Positions 10,656 through 20,905 of a stretch of DNA of 64,000 nucleotides are shown in pieces. The notes beneath the pieces are model-generated. The model worked only from the letters and a program-made list of their open reading frames with translations, was not told where the DNA came from and did no database searches. Each line of letters begins with the position of its first letter. The first letter of the stretch is position 1. Both the position numbers and the translations under genes were made by a program. The DNA is from Oscillospiraceae bacterium (GTDB taxonomy: Bacteria; Bacillota; Clostridia; Oscillospirales; CAG-272), in the NCBI GenBank assembly GCA_015065385.1, contig SVQK01000097.1, positions 55,516-119,515 on the forward strand. The letters run 5' to 3'.

Positions 10656-13136
<2,481 letters not shown>

Positions 13137-13325: not shown

Positions 13326-14342
13326 TTATCTGCTCCCGCGCAGTCCCGCCGCTCCGAGGATATCCCGGATCCTCGCCGCTCTCTCCGCCGTCAGTCCGGC
13401 TCCCGCGTCCTTGCCTTCCACCGCCGCGAGCGTATGGGGCAGGCAGGCGAAGAGCGCTTCGTCCACAAGCGGAACCGGGATGTCCGCGAGATTCATCGCC
13501 GCCGCCATTCTCATGCGGGAGTACATGGAGCAGAACTCCCCGGCTCCCAGACGTCCGGCGTACATGAGGATCCCGTATGCCCGGCAGACTTCCTCGGCGA
13601 CGTCCGCGCGCCCTTCTTCTGACAGGTTCTGTCTGTAGTCGCGCTCCCGGGCGGTCAGGCGTTCCGCGGCCTCCGTCACGGTCTTGGCCAGCTCTTCCTC
13701 GCTCATTCCCATGGTCTCGCGGTTGGCGATCGTATAGAGACCGGTGTCCGCTCCGCCCCAGTCCATCGAGCGGATGGAGATCCCGTCCTTGTTCAGACGG
13801 AACGCCGCGCGGGACAGCCATCCGGATTTCTCGAGCAGGGGCAGATGCAGGGTCACGCTCGCCCGCATGCCAGTTCCGAGAAGCTCCGGATTGCGCGTCA
13901 CATACCCGAACTGCTCGGCGTAGGCAATGTCGAACGCGTCGTCCAGAAGCTGTTCCGCCTCGAACGCCTTTTCCAGCGCGGCGGGAAGATCGCTCCCCGG
14001 AACCGCGGCTTCGATCCGCACATGATCCGCTCCGCCCACCGTCACGGACACGGAAAAGTCCTCGTTCTGGAACACGGCGGCGGGACGCTTCGAGGCGGCG
14101 GTCTCGCGGGTGATGATCCGCTGTTCGGCCAGCGCCTTTTTCTGCTCTTCCCCGGCTTCGGAGAGGTCCGTGACGCTCCAGCCGTTTTCGGCACGGTAAA
14201 CGCCCTTCGTCTTCTCCACAAGATCCCGGGCCTGCTCCTCGCTCATTTTATCGGTAAAGGGATATCCCTCAAGGTTTCTCGACAGGGCGACGCGCGCGTT
14301 CAGAACAACGTCTCCGTCCCGTCCTTCGGTCTTATACCACAT
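13326..14342 (-). CDS. mcsB: McsB-family protein, probable pseudo-arginine kinase
   Basis: 338 aa from ATG 14342, chosen over the GTG at 14381 because AAAGGAG sits 7 nt upstream and MWYKTEGRDGDVVL aligns with 'W.....PDSDIVLSSR'. The guanido-kinase fold is clear: 'ARVALSRNLEGYPF', 'GTGMRASVTLHLPLL', 'TGLYTIANRETMGMSEEEL', 'CRAYGILMYAGRL'. The positions that are catalytic in B. subtilis McsB are changed: NEEDH reads GGADH (103-107), the Cys-containing SCPTN reads TRNPE (149-153), and YGEGSE reads WGGAD (195-199). McsB normally phosphorylates arginines to inactivate CtsR and tag proteins for ClpCP. This copy may only be an adaptor. Operon place between mcsA and clpC is canonical. Confidence 0.9.
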   Translation of the reverse strand: MWYKTEGRDGDVVLNARVALSRNLEGYPFTDKMSEEQARDLVEKTKGVYRAENGWSVTDLSEAGEEQKKALAEQRIITRETAASKRPAAVFQNEDFSVSVTVGGADHVRIEAAVPGSDLPAALEKAFEAEQLLDDAFDIAYAEQFGYVTRNPELLGTGMRASVTLHLPLLEKSGWLSRAAFRLNKDGISIRSMDWGGADTGLYTIANRETMGMSEEELAKTVTEAAERLTARERDYRQNLSEEGRADVAEEVCRAYGILMYAGRLGAGEFCSMYSRMRMAAAMNLADIPVPLVDEALFACLPHTLAAVEGKDAGAGLTAERAARIRDILGAAGLRGSR

Positions 14343-14377: not shown

Positions 14378-15052
14378 TCACTGATGATCCCCGGAGTTTT
14401 CGGCCTGATTTTCAGCCGGGGCCTCCGCTGTCTCCGCGCTGTCCGCCGCTGCCGCTGTCGTTGCTGCCTGACGTTCCGCTTCTTCCTCGGCCCGGAGCTT
14501 TTTCAGCTCGTCCCGGATGGAGGCGGCCCGCTCGAAGTCCTCGTTCCGCACGGCCTCGCGCTGTTCCTCCGTCAGAGCCTCGATGCGGCGCTTCCGCTCG
14601 ATCCGGCTGCGGTACCGGCTGGGAACCCGTCCGGCGTGCGCGCCTTTCCCGTGGACTCTCGTGACCGTGGGAGCCAGCTCCTCGGCGAAGGTCTCAAAAC
14701 ATTTCGGACAGCCCGCGCCCTTCGTTGCGAAATCCCTCAGGGTCGATCCGCATACGGGGCAGGTCTTCTCTTCCTTTTTGTCCTTCTGAGTCCCGGAGCC
14801 GAGCGCCCGGTCGCCGCCGAAGAAGCCCTGAAGGAGTCCGTTCAGCGTCTTCATGGGGCTCTGCAGAAACGGCTCGTCGAAGAAGGGATCGAATTCGTCG
14901 AAGAAGCGGTCCGCGTCGAACTTCGGCAGCTCGTCCGCCTCCTCCATCTCCTTCGCGCAGTTTCCGCACAGCCGCAGGGTCTTCGTCACCCCGTTCACGT
15001 TTTCGTGATAGTAATAAGTGGCTTCGTTCTTTCCGCATTTTTCACAGAGCAT
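14378..15052 (-). CDS. mcsA: McsA-family zinc/UVR protein
   Basis: 224 aa. Zinc-binding CxxC pairs lie at the N-terminus (MLCEKCGKNEATYYYHE...LRLCGNCAKEM) and mid-protein ('CPVCGSTLRDFATKGAGCPKCFETF'), followed by a UVR motif ('EALTEEQREAVRNEDFERAASIRDELKKL'). McsA activates the McsB kinase and binds CtsR. ATG 15052 was chosen over TTG 15058 because GGAGG is 8 nt upstream of the ATG. The C-terminal ~35 residues are an Ala/Glu low-complexity tail not usual in the family. Second gene of the ctsR operon. Confidence 0.93.
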   Translation of the reverse strand: MLCEKCGKNEATYYYHENVNGVTKTLRLCGNCAKEMEEADELPKFDADRFFDEFDPFFDEPFLQSPMKTLNGLLQGFFGGDRALGSGTQKDKKEEKTCPVCGSTLRDFATKGAGCPKCFETFAEELAPTVTRVHGKGAHAGRVPSRYRSRIERKRRIEALTEEQREAVRNEDFERAASIRDELKKLRAEEEAERQAATTAAAADSAETAEAPAENQAENSGDHQ

Positions 15053-15125: not shown

Positions 15126-15578
15126 TCACATCATATAGATCAGAAGCATCCGCCGGAAGATTTCCGCCCGGAGCGCGTCCCGCTTTTCCGCCGGACAGCT
15201 CTCGAGGGCCGATTCCGTCATGGCCTGCGCCGCGAGCTTGCTTTCCCGCTCGGTCATGATCCCGTGATCCGTCAGGTTTTTGAGATACGCCGCCGCGTCC
15301 GCCTCGCCGAGGGACGAACCGACCGCCTGAAAGAAGTGCATCAGGTATTCGCTCCGGCTCATCTGGACCCGCACGATCCGGATGTATCCTCCGCCGCCCC
15401 GCCGGGAGTCGGTGACATAGCCGCGCTCGGGCGTGAAACGGGAGGTGATGACGTAGCTGATCTGCGAGGGAACGCATCCCAGTTTCTGCGCGAGGTCGTT
15501 TCTCCGGACCTCCGCGCGTCCTCCGCCTTCCTCCAGCATTTTTTCGATCATGGCGGCGATGTGATCCGAAAGAATCAT
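15126..15578 (-). CDS. ctsR: CtsR transcriptional repressor of class III heat-shock genes
   Basis: 150 aa. It has an N-terminal winged HTH ('RNDLAQKLGCVPSQISYVITSRF') and the CtsR-specific glycine-rich wing 'RGGGGYIRIVRV', which reads the GGTCAAA box. A helical C-terminal part follows ('AAYLKNLTDHGIMTERESKLAAQAM'), where McsB/McsA act in B. subtilis. It would repress its own operon and other clp genes. AAGGAGG lies just upstream of the ATG. Two CtsR boxes bracket the promoter, so autoregulation is directly supported. Confidence 0.96.
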   Translation of the reverse strand: MILSDHIAAMIEKMLEEGGGRAEVRRNDLAQKLGCVPSQISYVITSRFTPERGYVTDSRRGGGGYIRIVRVQMSRSEYLMHFFQAVGSSLGEADAAAYLKNLTDHGIMTERESKLAAQAMTESALESCPAEKRDALRAEIFRRMLLIYMM

Positions 15579-15615: not shown

Positions 15616-15632
15616 TTTGACTTTCTTTGTCC
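15616..15632 (-). promoter_or_regulatory. CtsR box downstream of the -10 (second operator)
   Basis: Minus strand GGACAAA-GAA-AGTCAAA: tandem heptamers with a 3-nt spacer and one mismatch to GGTCAAA. A further overlapping AGTCAAA follows. It lies between the promoter and the ctsR ribosome site. Confidence 0.7.
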
Positions 15633-15646
15633 TTCGTTGTGCCCCT

Positions 15647-15675
15647 ATTATAGTCCGAAAGTCAGGAAAAGTCAA
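15647..15675 (-). promoter_or_regulatory. Sigma-A promoter of the ctsR operon
   Basis: Minus strand TTGACT, 17-nt spacer, TATAAT. The -35 is embedded in the GTCAAA repeat array. Confidence 0.88.
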
Positions 15676-15692
15676 AGTCAAAGAAAGTCAAA
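15676..15692 (+). promoter_or_regulatory. CtsR box at the -35
   Basis: AGTCAAA-GAA-AGTCAAA on the plus strand, an exact match to the (A/G)GTCAAA-NAN-(A/G)GTCAAA consensus. A third overlapping heptamer lies at 15670-15676. Confidence 0.88.
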
Positions 15693-15802: not shown

Positions 15803-16300
15803 TCAGCCCATCCCGTTGTACGCCTCGGCGAGAGCAAGCCATGTCGGGCGGTCCGCGCGGCCGGTTTCGGGAAGTCCGGCGATCCGCTGAAAGCACCGCA
15901 CCGCCGCCTCGGTCTCCGCGCCGTACCGTCCGTCTGCGGGAACGCTGCCGAAGGGACAGTCCGCCTCGAGCCCGCGCAGGATCAGCTGGAGCCACAGCAC
16001 GGCGTCCCCTTCGTCCCCCGGCCCCGCCTCCGTCTCCCGGATCCGGACAAAGACCGGCGCGCGCCTCTCCTCCTCTTCGGAACAGCAGGCGACCACGCTG
16101 TCCCATGTCTCCCGTCCGCAGAGCCCGGTGACGGGGAGACAGCGCATCTCCTGGAACGCCCGGACCGCCCGCTCCGTCGCCTCGTTCCACACGCCGCACA
16201 CCGGGACCGTCAGGCAGCCCTCCCCCCACGCCGCGCCGAGCATGCACAGCATCCGCTGGAGCGTTTCGATCCGCTCCCGTTCGTTTGAAAGATTCGGCAT
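15803..16300 (-). CDS. Protein with two peptidoglycan-binding (PG_binding_1) domains
   Basis: 165 aa, no signal peptide or membrane segment. Two copies of the PG_binding_1 three-helix repeat are visible: residues ~8-67 ('TVPVCGVWNEATERAVRAFQEMRCLPVTGLCGRETWDSVV') and ~95-160 ('DGRYGAETEAAVRCFQRIAGLPETGRADRPTWLALAEAYN'). No catalytic domain is attached. It is third in an operon after the SpoIID-like/PG-binding protein (53-nt gap), so it probably works with that protein on the cell wall or spore cortex. How it leaves the cytoplasm is not evident. Confidence 0.85.
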   Translation of the reverse strand: MPNLSNERERIETLQRMLCMLGAAWGEGCLTVPVCGVWNEATERAVRAFQEMRCLPVTGLCGRETWDSVVACCSEEEERRAPVFVRIRETEAGPGDEGDAVLWLQLILRGLEADCPFGSVPADGRYGAETEAAVRCFQRIAGLPETGRADRPTWLALAEAYNGMG

Positions 16301-16353: not shown

Positions 16354-17778
16354 TCACGCGCCGCCGTCAAGCCCCTGCCCAAGTCCGAGCACTCCGGCAA
16401 ACTGGGTCTCGGCCCCGTATTCGCCCTCCTCCAGCGCGCGGTAGGCGTTCGAGAGGGATTCCCATGTGAAGGACGCGACGGCTCCGGTGGGATCGAGCCC
16501 CGCGATCCGCTGCCAGATACGCACCGCTTCTTCCGTCTTCGCGCCGAAAATCCCGTCCTCGGTCAGCGGCGGGATCCGGCCCCCAACCTGCCCGATCCGG
16601 TTCAGCCAGCTCTGCACGAGGCGCACGTCCTCTCCCCGGCTCCCGCGCCTCAGCACCGTACCGGGATAGGGCGGCGTATAGACCGGGAAATAGTCCGGCG
16701 GAAGGGAGTCCCGGTAGATCATGTACCGCCGGTAGAGCAGCTCCCACGTCGCCCGGTCCACCACGCCCGTCACGGCAAGGCCCGCGTCCCGCTGAAAGTC
16801 CTCCACCGCGCCCCTTGTGACCGGCCCGAAAATGCCGTCCGTCTCCACGGGCCGCACCGTCTCGTCAAACCGGGAGACAAAGGCGAGGAAGTATTGAAGC
16901 TCCCGCACCTCGTTCCCCCGAAGCCCTTCGTACAGCCGGTCGCCGAACAGCACGGTCACGTCCTCCGGCGGAACGCCCTCCGCGTTGAGATCGGACAGCC
17001 GCTTCACCGCCGCGTAGATCCTTGCGATGGCGTACCACGTCCCCCGCCCCACGATCCCGTCCGCCTCGAGGCCGAACTGCCGCTGGAACGCCTCCACCGC
17101 GTCCACGGTTTCCGCATTGTACACCCCGTCGAGCCGGGAGATCTTCGGAATGCCGGGGTAGTTTTTCGAAATCCGGTTCAGACGCGCCTGAATGAGATAC
17201 ACGTCGTCCCCGAAGCTCTCGGCCCCGAGCGGCTCCCCGGGATAGCTCTCCCGCACGCCCTCCACCGGCACGTCGGACACGATCTCCACGTCCTCGCCGT
17301 AATAGTACCGTAAAATCTCGATCGGCGAGAACCCCGCTCTGGCCAGCTCCACGGATCCCCACTGGGACAGCCCGCCGCACTGAACCTCGATCCCGTCGCA
17401 GTAGAGGGCGAAGAGGGGCTGGATCTCCCCGCGCCGCCGGACGTAGGAGTTGAACACCCCGTCCACGAGCCGCGAGACGTTCTCGAAGATATCCCGCCCG
17501 TAGACGAACGACTGGTCGATCGAGGTGGAATTGGTCAGATCGAAGTCGTACCCGCGGCTCGGATAGTACTCCGTGTAGATCCGGTTCAGCGCGAAGCTGA
17601 TCTGTGCGTAAATGTTGGCAAGGAGCGCGTTTTCGGGCCATGTCGGATAGATCTCGCTCGACGCCACGTTTTTGATGTAATCCGCGAAGGACACCGTCAC
17701 GTTGCGCGCCTCCGCCTCGGGCCGTCCCAGATGGACCGTCACCGTCTCCGGAATCACCGGAATCCTCGCCCCGTTCAC
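16354..17778 (-). CDS. SpoIID/LytB-like domain protein with three peptidoglycan-binding repeats
   Basis: 474 aa. Residues ~25-165 resemble the SpoIID/LytB amidase-enhancer domain ('VSFADYIKNVASSEIYPTWPENALLANIYAQISFALNR', 'CGGLSQWGSVELARAGFSPIEILRYYYGEDVEIV'). Three PG_binding_1 repeats follow (~190-255, ~280-355, ~380-450), each with the 'DG.(F/Y)G..T..AV..FQ...GL...G.V...TW' pattern. The N-terminus (MNGARIPVIPETVTVHLG) is not a classical signal peptide. SpoIID is a lytic transglycosylase in engulfment; the expected catalytic Glu appears within 'ASSEIYPTW'. The ATGA overlap with the upstream gene indicates coupled translation. The combination suggests a cortex or septal wall-remodelling factor. 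Confidence 0.82.
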   Translation of the reverse strand: MNGARIPVIPETVTVHLGRPEAEARNVTVSFADYIKNVASSEIYPTWPENALLANIYAQISFALNRIYTEYYPSRGYDFDLTNSTSIDQSFVYGRDIFENVSRLVDGVFNSYVRRRGEIQPLFALYCDGIEVQCGGLSQWGSVELARAGFSPIEILRYYYGEDVEIVSDVPVEGVRESYPGEPLGAESFGDDVYLIQARLNRISKNYPGIPKISRLDGVYNAETVDAVEAFQRQFGLEADGIVGRGTWYAIARIYAAVKRLSDLNAEGVPPEDVTVLFGDRLYEGLRGNEVRELQYFLAFVSRFDETVRPVETDGIFGPVTRGAVEDFQRDAGLAVTGVVDRATWELLYRRYMIYRDSLPPDYFPVYTPPYPGTVLRRGSRGEDVRLVQSWLNRIGQVGGRIPPLTEDGIFGAKTEEAVRIWQRIAGLDPTGAVASFTWESLSNAYRALEEGEYGAETQFAGVLGLGQGLDGGA

Positions 17779-18278: not shown

Positions 18279-18664
18279 GCGCAACACCTCCTGAATCTGC
18301 TTTCTCCCTCAGTGTATGCGCATTCCGGAAAACCGTCCCTTTTGGCGGGAATATTCATTCGTATTCACTGTTATGCACAAATTCAAGTATATATTGATTT
18401 TCGAATTTTGCCATTTGTTGGCGGTTTTCATGCCATAAATTGGCATTTTTCGACCGATCGTTTTGCCATTCGGCGGCAATGTTCACAGATTTTCGGCAGT
18501 TTCACGCAAATTTCGGCAAGCTGTGCTTGAATTTTGAATTTTCCGTAAATTCAAGAACGGCTTTATTGCAATCGGGCCGGGTTTGTGCTATCGTGGAGAT
18601 GCGGATCCGAACACGACAAACGCACGAACAATATACATCGATATGCAGAAAAGGAGAGACGAAC
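18279..18664. promoter_or_regulatory. Palindrome-rich upstream region of the HTH/beta-solenoid gene
   Basis: No gene. AT-richer than its surroundings. It holds several short inverted repeats with TTGCC/GGCAA-type arms: GCCA-N5-TGGC (18410-18422), ATGCCA-TAAAT-TGGCAT (18430-18446) and TTGCC-N7-GGCAA (18463-18479). A perfect 9-bp inverted repeat, CTTGAATTT-N12-AAATTCAAG (18526-18555), sits just upstream of the -35. These are candidate operators, possibly for autoregulation by the HTH protein. Confidence 0.55.
18566..18594 (+). promoter_or_regulatory. Sigma-A promoter for the HTH/beta-solenoid gene
   Basis: TTGCAA, 17-nt spacer, TATCGT with an extended TGC in front of the -10. About 70 nt before the ATG. 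Confidence 0.72.
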
Positions 18665-20905
18665 ATGACGGACAGAACGATCATCGGCCAGCGCATCGCG
18701 GAATTGAGAAAACAGAAAGGACTGACGCAGGCGGAGCTGGCGGACATGCTCGGCGTCACCCATCAGGCGGTGTCCCAATGGGAGAGAAGCGAGACCCTGC
18801 CGGACATTCTGACCCTGCCCCGGATCGCCCAGATCTTCGGAGAAAACATCAACGCCATCCTCGGACTGGAGGAGACAAAGGGAGAGTCCGCGGAACAGGC
18901 GGAAATCACGGAGAAGGAAAATGAACCGGCGGACGAGGCTCAGCCGGTCATGAAAGAAGAAGCGGAGCCCGCGGAGGCCGCCTTTCCCTCCGGAGAAGCG
19001 GAAGCCGAAGAGCCGGAGGCAGAGACGGAGAACGAAGACGGAGCGGATCACGGTGACGTTGTGCGTATCGATATCCCGCCGATCCGGATCCCCGGAATGC
19101 CGGAAATCACCGTCCCGCCCGTCACGATCCCGAAAATCGGCACGGCGGCGGACATTCTGAATTCCGACGAGCTGAAAAAGCAGATCGAAGAAGCGGCGGA
19201 GAACGCGCGGAATCAGCAGAAGGACATGGAAAAGATCATGTTGGAAAAAGCGGAGGAAGCCCGCCGGAAGAGCGAACGCATACGCAGTCAGGCAGCCGAA
19301 GCCGCGGAGAAGGTACGCGCGGAAGCTGAGAAGATGCGCGGGGAAGCGATGGAAAAAGCGCGCGCGGAAGCCAAAAAAACACGGGAAGCCGTAAGAGCCG
19401 AAGCGGAAAAAGTCCGGGAAGCAGCAAGAAACGAAGCCATGAGAAAGGCGGAAGCAAGCCGCGCCGTTCCTCCCGTGCCGCCGATCCCGCCTGTTCCGCC
19501 GATCCCTCCGGTACCCGGCAAGACGACAGAGGCTTTTATGAAGGAAACGGAATCCGATCTTGAAACCCGCTCCATGACCGCGCAGGAGGGGGACAGCGGC
19601 GAACACATCCATGTGAACCCGGAGGGCTGGTCTCTGCCCGCCTCGGAGGAGACCGTGGACTTCGGGGGCGAAGAGGGAGAATACGAGATCTGCGTCGTGA
19701 AGGACGGAAAGGTCGTCGTCTCGTTCAACGGCAACCCCGCAAGGTTCCTCCACATCCATGTGCACGGCGTCGGCGGATCGCTCCGGTCCGAGCTGTCCGT
19801 AACGGTGGAGGGCGACGTGAACGGCCGGGCGGACAGCGGTCTTGACATGCTGGTGCGGGGGAATGTGAACGGTCCCGCGAACGCCGGTCTGAATCTCACC
19901 TGCGGCGACGTGGCCGGGAACGCGAACGCCGGACTGGAACTGAAATGCGGCGCGGTCTCGGGCAAAAAATCCGCGGGAATGGGAGTCCGTGAAGAAGGCG
20001 CGAAGGAAGCGGAGGACGGCTCTTCCTTCACGGCGGACGGCAAAAACGTCACGATCAACGGCCCCTATGCCGGGGATCTCTCGACGGCGGCGGCGGTCAC
20101 AGTGAACGGTCCCGTGGGGGGCAGCGTGGTCTCGACCGCGTCCGTTCAGGTCAACGGGGACGTGGAAGGCGACGTGACGGCTCAGGGCGACGCCACCGTG
20201 ACCGGCGATATCAACGGAGAAGTGAGCGTGGGCGGCAAGTTGTCCGTGTACGGCGACATAGACGGAGACGCTTCCGCCGGGGGCGATATCGTCGTCGAGG
20301 GCGATGTGGACGGGGACGCCTCGTCCGGGGGCAGCATGACCGTATTGGGCGATATCGAAGGCGACGTGACCGGCGTGGGCGGGGATCTCTCCGTGGAAGG
20401 CAGCGTCTCGGGCGACTTCGGCGGTCTGGCATCGGCGGACGGAAAGACCGTCACCATTTCGGGCGACTACGACGGGGATCTCTCGGGAGCCGCCAGCGTC
20501 ACGGTCAACGGCGACGTCAACGGCGATATCAGCGACGCGAAGGACGTGAAGGTCGAGGGCAGCGTGTCGGGGGATCTGAACGACTGCGGCGCGGTGACGG
20601 TCGGCGGAGAGGTCAACGGAGACGTGGATGCGGGAGCTGTCGCGGTGTCCGGAGACGTGAACGGGGATCTTTCCTCCTCGAAGGACGCGGAGGTCGGCGG
20701 AAGCGTGTCCGGAGATTTGGACGCGGGCGGCAGCGTGTCGGTCGGAGGCGGCGTCGGAGGAGACGTGAGCACGGGCGGCAAGGTCTCGGTCGGCGGGGAC
20801 GTCAACGGGAACATCGACGCGGGCGCGGGCGTGACCGTGGAAGGCGACGTGGCGGGCGATATCGACGCCGCGAAGGTCATTGTCAACGGGAAACGGGTGG
20901 AATAA
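18665..20905 (+). CDS. XRE-family HTH protein fused to a coiled coil and a bactofilin-like beta-solenoid
   Basis: 746 aa from ATG 18665 (AGGAGA upstream). Residues 1-67 are a clear HTH_3 domain ('IAELRKQKGLTQAELADMLGVTHQAVSQWERSETLPD'). Next come an acidic linker (~68-130), a Pro/Ile-rich strip, an Ala/Glu/Lys/Arg coiled coil (~165-265) and a 'VPPVPPIPP' hinge. From ~370 to the end there is a long repeat of the type 'V.GDV.GD(V/I)...G.V.V.GDV', very like the right-handed beta-solenoid of bactofilins and polymer-forming adhesin domains. There is no signal peptide or membrane helix, so it is predicted cytoplasmic. It may bind DNA and polymerise, or sense a surface through the solenoid. The function is unknown and no characterised homologue is recognised. 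Confidence 0.85.
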   Translation: MTDRTIIGQRIAELRKQKGLTQAELADMLGVTHQAVSQWERSETLPDILTLPRIAQIFGENINAILGLEETKGESAEQAEITEKENEPADEAQPVMKEEAEPAEAAFPSGEAEAEEPEAETENEDGADHGDVVRIDIPPIRIPGMPEITVPPVTIPKIGTAADILNSDELKKQIEEAAENARNQQKDMEKIMLEKAEEARRKSERIRSQAAEAAEKVRAEAEKMRGEAMEKARAEAKKTREAVRAEAEKVREAARNEAMRKAEASRAVPPVPPIPPVPPIPPVPGKTTEAFMKETESDLETRSMTAQEGDSGEHIHVNPEGWSLPASEETVDFGGEEGEYEICVVKDGKVVVSFNGNPARFLHIHVHGVGGSLRSELSVTVEGDVNGRADSGLDMLVRGNVNGPANAGLNLTCGDVAGNANAGLELKCGAVSGKKSAGMGVREEGAKEAEDGSSFTADGKNVTINGPYAGDLSTAAAVTVNGPVGGSVVSTASVQVNGDVEGDVTAQGDATVTGDINGEVSVGGKLSVYGDIDGDASAGGDIVVEGDVDGDASSGGSMTVLGDIEGDVTGVGGDLSVEGSVSGDFGGLASADGKTVTISGDYDGDLSGAASVTVNGDVNGDISDAKDVKVEGSVSGDLNDCGAVTVGGEVNGDVDAGAVAVSGDVNGDLSSSKDAEVGGSVSGDLDAGGSVSVGGGVGGDVSTGGKVSVGGDVNGNIDAGAGVTVEGDVAGDIDAAKVIVNGKRVE

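Follow-up and report, generated by a model that had tools for sequence, protein, structure and literature searches.

We asked why McsB, the protein arginine kinase that normally marks damaged proteins by phosphorylating arginine, should persist at a locus where its active site appears to have been dismantled. The window, the 64,000-nucleotide stretch of Oscillospiraceae DNA analysed here, carries on its minus strand the genes ctsR (15126..15578), mcsA (14378..15052), mcsB (13326..14342), and clpC (10656..13136), in that order. The first-pass annotation had placed the mcsB gene of this ctsR operon at the right coordinates, and its reading frame (start codon ATG at 14342, last base of the stop codon at 13326) is uninterrupted over 338 aa. 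It had also described the neighboring genes as intact, and ctsR, mcsA, and clpC are indeed full length with the expected domains: a GGGG thermosensor loop (RGGGGYIRI) in CtsR, a UVR domain and paired CxxC motifs in McsA, and, in the 826-aa ClpC, the equivalents of the pArg-pocket residues Glu32 and Glu106 (GTEHL, GTEHL). The CtsR boxes that it had judged good comprise one perfect site, AGTCAAAGAAAGTCAAA (15676..15692, plus strand), and two near-perfect ones, a box with 1 mismatch (15616..15632, minus strand) and a box-like site with 2 mismatches (15660..15676, plus strand), all 38–114 bases 5' of ctsR, where chance alone predicts 0.13 across the entire window. Further 5' of ctsR, two adjoining minus-strand genes (15803-16300 and 16354-17778) encode repeated peptidoglycan-binding domains (PF01471), the larger, 16354-17778, with an N-terminal part lacking a Pfam match. 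An 821-aa frame on the plus strand (18440-20905) begins with an XRE-type helix-turn-helix (HTH_3), continues as a long charged coil, and ends in a repeated bactofilin-type (PF04519) region, an unusual HTH-bactofilin fusion.

Near whole-length homology and the site between mcsA and clpC identify the protein as a member of the McsB family by descent. It scored 118.8 bits against PF00217, the phosphagen-kinase domain profile, and 206.7 bits against the NCBIfam protein arginine kinase model, below the equivalog cut-off of 385, and HMMER aligned it with McsB of Geobacillus stearothermophilus (6fh1; E=5.7e-36, residues 2–302) and Staphylococcus aureus (8gqd; E=4.5e-34, residues 2–289). A profile search of the window genome (G000, 94% complete) returned mcsB as its only PF00217 match; no second, intact McsB was found elsewhere in that genome.

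The residues of the active site were located by pairwise alignment with four solved McsB sequences (6fh1, 8wtb, 6tv6, and 8gqd), using native residue numbers anchored on C167, and a multiple alignment with 56 intact homologs gave identical columns. The three motif replacements reported earlier (NEEDH to GGADH, SCPTN to TRNPE, and YGEGSE to WGGAD) were reproduced in all of these alignments. GGADH in place of NEEDH (14022..14036, minus strand) removes the catalytic E121 (E121>A). TRNPE in place of TSCPT (13884..13898, minus strand) removes the catalytic C167 (C167>N; CPTN>NPEL), with RNPEL lying under [ST]CPTN; in Bacillus subtilis, C167S is the classical allele without kinase activity (PMC7235348). 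WGGAD (13746..13760, minus strand) is the remnant of the GEGSE lid loop, shorter by 2 aa, in which WGGADT aligns under YGEGSEAL with a 2-residue deletion and a Gly stands in place of E212. Two further losses had been overlooked. LT (13389..13394, minus strand) occupies the position of R337/D338, the pArg-receptor pair that holds McsB oligomers together in B. subtilis (PMC8370763). NARVA replaces SSRIR (14286..14300, minus strand), so that the ATP-site Arg28 is kept and Arg30 is lost. R28, R30, R125, R176, and R207 are taken by us to be ATP-holding residues, by analogy with arginine kinase, and four of these five equivalents (R28, R125, R176, and R207) are present. The rest of the domain aligned without large gaps and includes DHVRI, GTGMRASV, and HLP, in line with the earlier statement that the fold-defining blocks remain. 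An alternative register that would supply the active site with a Glu or a Cys was sought and ruled out by the four PDB alignments and by an alignment of 106 sequences. An AlphaFold model based on 4 sequences had low confidence (pLDDT 47) and lent no structural support.

The same or similar replacements were found in three congeneric MAGs named 'uncultured Ruminococcus sp.' (RUG10688, RUG12348, and RUG12770), placed in Oscillospiraceae by NCBI taxonomy and presumably of rumen origin. Their McsBs (L100, L101, and L102) are 77, 76, and 65% identical to that of the window, gapless over 338 residues, and share the motifs GG[AT]DH and [ND]P[ED]L and the lack of GEGSE; three separately assembled genomes rule out assembly error or chance as the cause of the losses. 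Among the four species, mcsB gave dN/dS values of 0.12–0.25 by the simple NG86 estimator (dS 0.5–1.4, bootstrap upper bounds ≤0.35). Because of these low values, the view is supported that mcsB is kept by selection in the window's genus, as had been proposed, and is not a decaying pseudogene. The purifying pressure on clpC is stronger (dN/dS about 0.10, three closest species), and the mcsB values lie above those of most intact McsB pairs (0.04–0.14). The four remodeled active-site blocks evolve no faster than the remaining McsB. Another pair of catalytically dead mcsB genes (L062/L063) gave a dN/dS of 0.097.

To examine the prevalence of the loss, McsBs were classed by E121, C167, and E212, a dead protein being one with at most one of these residues left. 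PF00217 was matched in 68 of the 146 genomes of the window's family, the remaining 78 having no McsB match, and the scores formed a group of strong matches followed by a weak tail. Reading of the weak-tail sequences revealed McsBs without the catalytic residues in L060–L069 and the window, and an intermediate in L058. Intact McsBs were present in G099/L044, which is labeled as the window's own genus, in genus g3 and, judging from the domain score, in g131. Wider surveys, at the level of order and class, revealed dead McsBs in additional families (f13, f16, f23, f34, f57, f67, f102, and f103); a loss peculiar to the window's species is thus ruled out, and the alignment across Clostridia that the first-pass annotation had suggested as a check shows the loss to be shared by the three congeners and recurrent across several families. 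In total, 106 clostridial McsBs were classed as 56 intact, 2 with two residues, and 48 dead, a sample enriched by the deliberate retrieval of weak PF00217 scorers, so that 48/106 is not a frequency. On a tree of the ClpC N-terminal region, a single-gene stand-in for the species tree, the dead state required 7–8 changes on the best tree. Supported branches make 4 of these unavoidable, a minimum of 4 origins for kinase-dead McsB.

The genomes are mostly MAGs, and absence calls are affected by their incompleteness. B. subtilis carries both McsB and CtsR; among 14 control genomes that included it, the PF00217 profile matched none and the CtsR profile matched only Lactococcus lactis, so absences from these profile searches are to be read with care. 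In genus g26, to which the dead-McsB genome G025 belongs, two loci (L117 in G087 and L118 in G131) have ctsR with McsB undetected and other genes after ctsR in place of mcsA-mcsB; G087 also has clpC.

Next, we looked for the eraser of the modification. YwlE differs from tyrosine LMW-PTPs in having Thr, not Ile, at P-loop position 5 (PMC8001253); a YwlE-type enzyme was accordingly defined as an LMW-PTP with CxGNTCRS and searched for as a degenerate DNA pattern encoding GNTCRSP. No YwlE-type LMW-PTP was found in the window genome, whose sole LMW-PTP reads CWGNICRSP and is of the tyrosine type. Within the window's family, 49 of the 55 intact-McsB genomes carried the pattern and 0 of the 11 dead-McsB genomes did (Fisher p=1e-8, with phylogeny disregarded). 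Among the 78 genomes without an McsB match it occurred in 3; one of these matches, encoding GNTCRCP, is probably spurious. Matches in G694 (GNTCSSP) and G103 (GNTCRCP) were read as spurious on inspection. In other families, nearly all dead-McsB genomes were negative, with one true match (G204), and most intact ones were positive, giving overall 1 true match in 46 dead-McsB genomes. Contrasts inside a single genus or family (g1, g3, g131, and f57) agreed, and a phylogeny-aware test yielded 3 supported independent pairs, each tied or in the expected direction, a number too small for significance. The pArg receptor follows a similar pattern: position 337 is Arg in 54 of 56 intact versus 10 of 48 dead McsBs, and R341, four residues on, is kept in 45 of the 48 dead proteins. 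One genome (L046/G133) lacks ctsR and the YwlE signature, yet all McsB catalytic residues are present; it is possibly an intermediate in the loss. Beyond the three motifs, the loss of the receptor, the missing eraser signature, and the same joint losses in unrelated lineages all support the earlier proposal that the window's McsB is a pseudokinase, probably devoid of arginine kinase activity.

The reader of the mark has fared differently among families. ClpC Glu32 and Glu106 form part of the pArg pockets (PMC12583610). The window's genus has kept both, as have 13 of 13 dead-McsB genomes of its family, ruling out their co-loss there. The kept residues would suit pArg recognition too; MecA and the resting state of ClpC also use them. 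Among dead-McsB genomes of other families (n=29), Glu32 is absent in 8, mostly in f67, and Glu106 in 6. In genus g266 of f67 (L123, L126, L129, L131, L133, L135–L137, and L141), Glu32 of the ClpC N-domain is mostly lost and the second pocket reads PEH or PVH; the reader sites of this genus may be eroding as well.

Among 47 columns that hardly vary in intact McsBs, the catalytic-site ones are mostly lost from dead McsBs (C167 retained in 0%, E121 in 17%, and E212 in 15%, the first value being partly by construction, since the dead class is defined by catalytic columns). R33, G162, G172, and E251 are retained in 100%, H123 in 94%, and N34, P184, and L183 in about 90%. In S. aureus, the McsA zinc finger docks on the McsB loop Y147–Y153 and positions the catalytic Cys (reviewed in PMC12467219). 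The equivalent YAEQFGY is retained in the window (13902..13922, minus strand), matching YxExxGY, and the window's McsA has the CxxC pairs; in dead McsBs generally the loop mostly reads [FY]-x-[ED]-x-[LFY]-G-[YF], just ahead of the lost Cys. McsA has at least 4 CxxC motifs at 41 of 48 dead loci, and mcsA-mcsB-clpC is their usual gene order. Six dead loci of f23 (L103, L108, L111, L113, L114, and L116) have mcsA and mcsB without adjoining ctsR or clpC in the short stretch examined. A genome-wide profile search gave no ctsR match in dead-McsB members of g3, g7, g48, and g68, where mcsA and clpC still lie beside mcsB.

Collectively, these observations bear on four accounts of the dead protein. It could be a pseudogene in the making, the kinase loss being a step toward loss of the gene with no function left. 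About half of the family genomes (78/146) have no McsB match, and g26 contains one dead-McsB species alongside two others with ctsR but no McsB match, as expected under such a course; against it, the dead genes are open frames of normal length, dN/dS stays well under 1 both for the window's genus and for g68, and the McsA loop and operon position are retained in clades as deep as f57 and f67. We consider this course unlikely. It is also rather improbable that McsB remains catalytic through a remodeled active site, with residual arginine kinase activity or another nucleotide-transfer reaction. Four of five ATP-site Arg equivalents remain in the window, and the remodeled blocks match the rest of the protein in conservation among the four species; the pocket is therefore not in free drift. 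However, all three catalytic residues, the lid loop, and the pArg receptor are gone, the eraser signature is absent, and most other dead clades show erosion of the ATP-site Arg residues too (23–35% kept).

Retention solely as a kinase-independent factor displacing CtsR seems very improbable, even though ctsR and its boxes are present at the window locus and B. subtilis McsB, once freed from oxidized McsA, removes CtsR from DNA (PMC5506225). Four genera (g3, g7, g48, and g68) have dead McsB without a genome-wide ctsR match, and partnership with CtsR is therefore not the general reason for retention. Of the two roles first suggested, ClpC adaptor or CtsR partner, the ClpC and McsA side is the one favored by the persistence of the docking loop, the McsA zinc fingers, and the linkage to clpC; the CtsR side fails as a general explanation but may apply in the window's own genus, where ctsR is present.

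We therefore favor, as the probable explanation, that McsB persists together with McsA as a scaffold and non-catalytic partner of ClpC after loss of both the writer and the eraser of pArg. Stepwise, the window's genus and, independently, several other clostridial lineages would have dismantled the pArg cycle while retaining the McsA-McsB scaffold: the writer residues (E121, C167, and E212), the receptor R337/D338, and the eraser YwlE would vanish together, and the McsB protein would persist because it continues to bind McsA, the YxExxGY loop pairing with the McsA zinc finger, and is produced beside ClpC. Its most likely role would be that of a non-catalytic adaptor or regulator, the McsA-McsB pair docking on ClpC, gating its resting and active states, and presenting substrates directly; the McsA zinc cysteines may serve as a redox switch, and in genera retaining ctsR, McsB may bind CtsR too. 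Docking of substrate or adaptor on the ClpC N-domain releases the resting state (PMC12583610), and a non-catalytic McsA-McsB could therefore still regulate ClpC. CtsR senses heat through its own glycine loop (PMC5506225); the window's CtsR has this loop, and heat induction therefore need not depend on pArg. As a counterpoint, the ClpC adaptor function of B. subtilis McsB is reported to require kinase activity (PMC5506225), so the role of McsB must presumably have changed. A bolder extension, which we offer tentatively, is that several clostridial lineages made pArg degradation phosphorylation-free, with dead McsA-McsB acting as a direct ClpC adaptor or activator; in the window's genus, nucleotide held in the remaining ATP pocket might gate it.

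McsB is the usual marker of arginine phosphorylation, and genomes are annotated as pArg-competent by the presence of mcsB; annotation of mcsB alone is an unsafe basis for inferring pArg signaling. Within one class, catalysis and eraser have been jointly lost several times while the scaffold stays, and the dead McsBs are natural separation-of-function proteins for the question of a kinase-independent ClpC adaptor role. Recurrent loss of the McsB kinase in Clostridia is new here: our search of the open-access literature, with subscription papers outside its scope, found no report of natural McsB pseudokinases.

The window's McsB resembles the protein arginine kinases of B. subtilis, G. stearothermophilus, and S. 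aureus in near full-length homology, operon position, McsA-docking loop, and dimerization-domain residues; it differs in lacking E121, C167, E212, R30, and R337/D338, and its genome in lacking a YwlE-type signature. The closest experimental parallel is the kinase-dead B. subtilis C167S mutant, in which MgsR is stabilized less than upon deletion of mcsB; the authors interpreted this as an adaptor function independent of the kinase, partial in MgsR turnover (PMC7235348). By contrast, the window's McsB is natural, carries many more losses, and has been fixed over at least the divergence of four species. The proposed docking on the ClpC N-domain by protein-protein contact would liken it to the non-kinase adaptors MecA and MdfA; these are different proteins, with docking of the window's McsB only proposed, and MecA was not found in the window genome. 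In bacterial Ser/Thr pseudokinases (chlamydial Pkn5; families in PMC12599244), a kinase scaffold likewise outlasts its catalytic residues, on a Hanks-type fold as opposed to the phosphagen-kinase fold of McsB.
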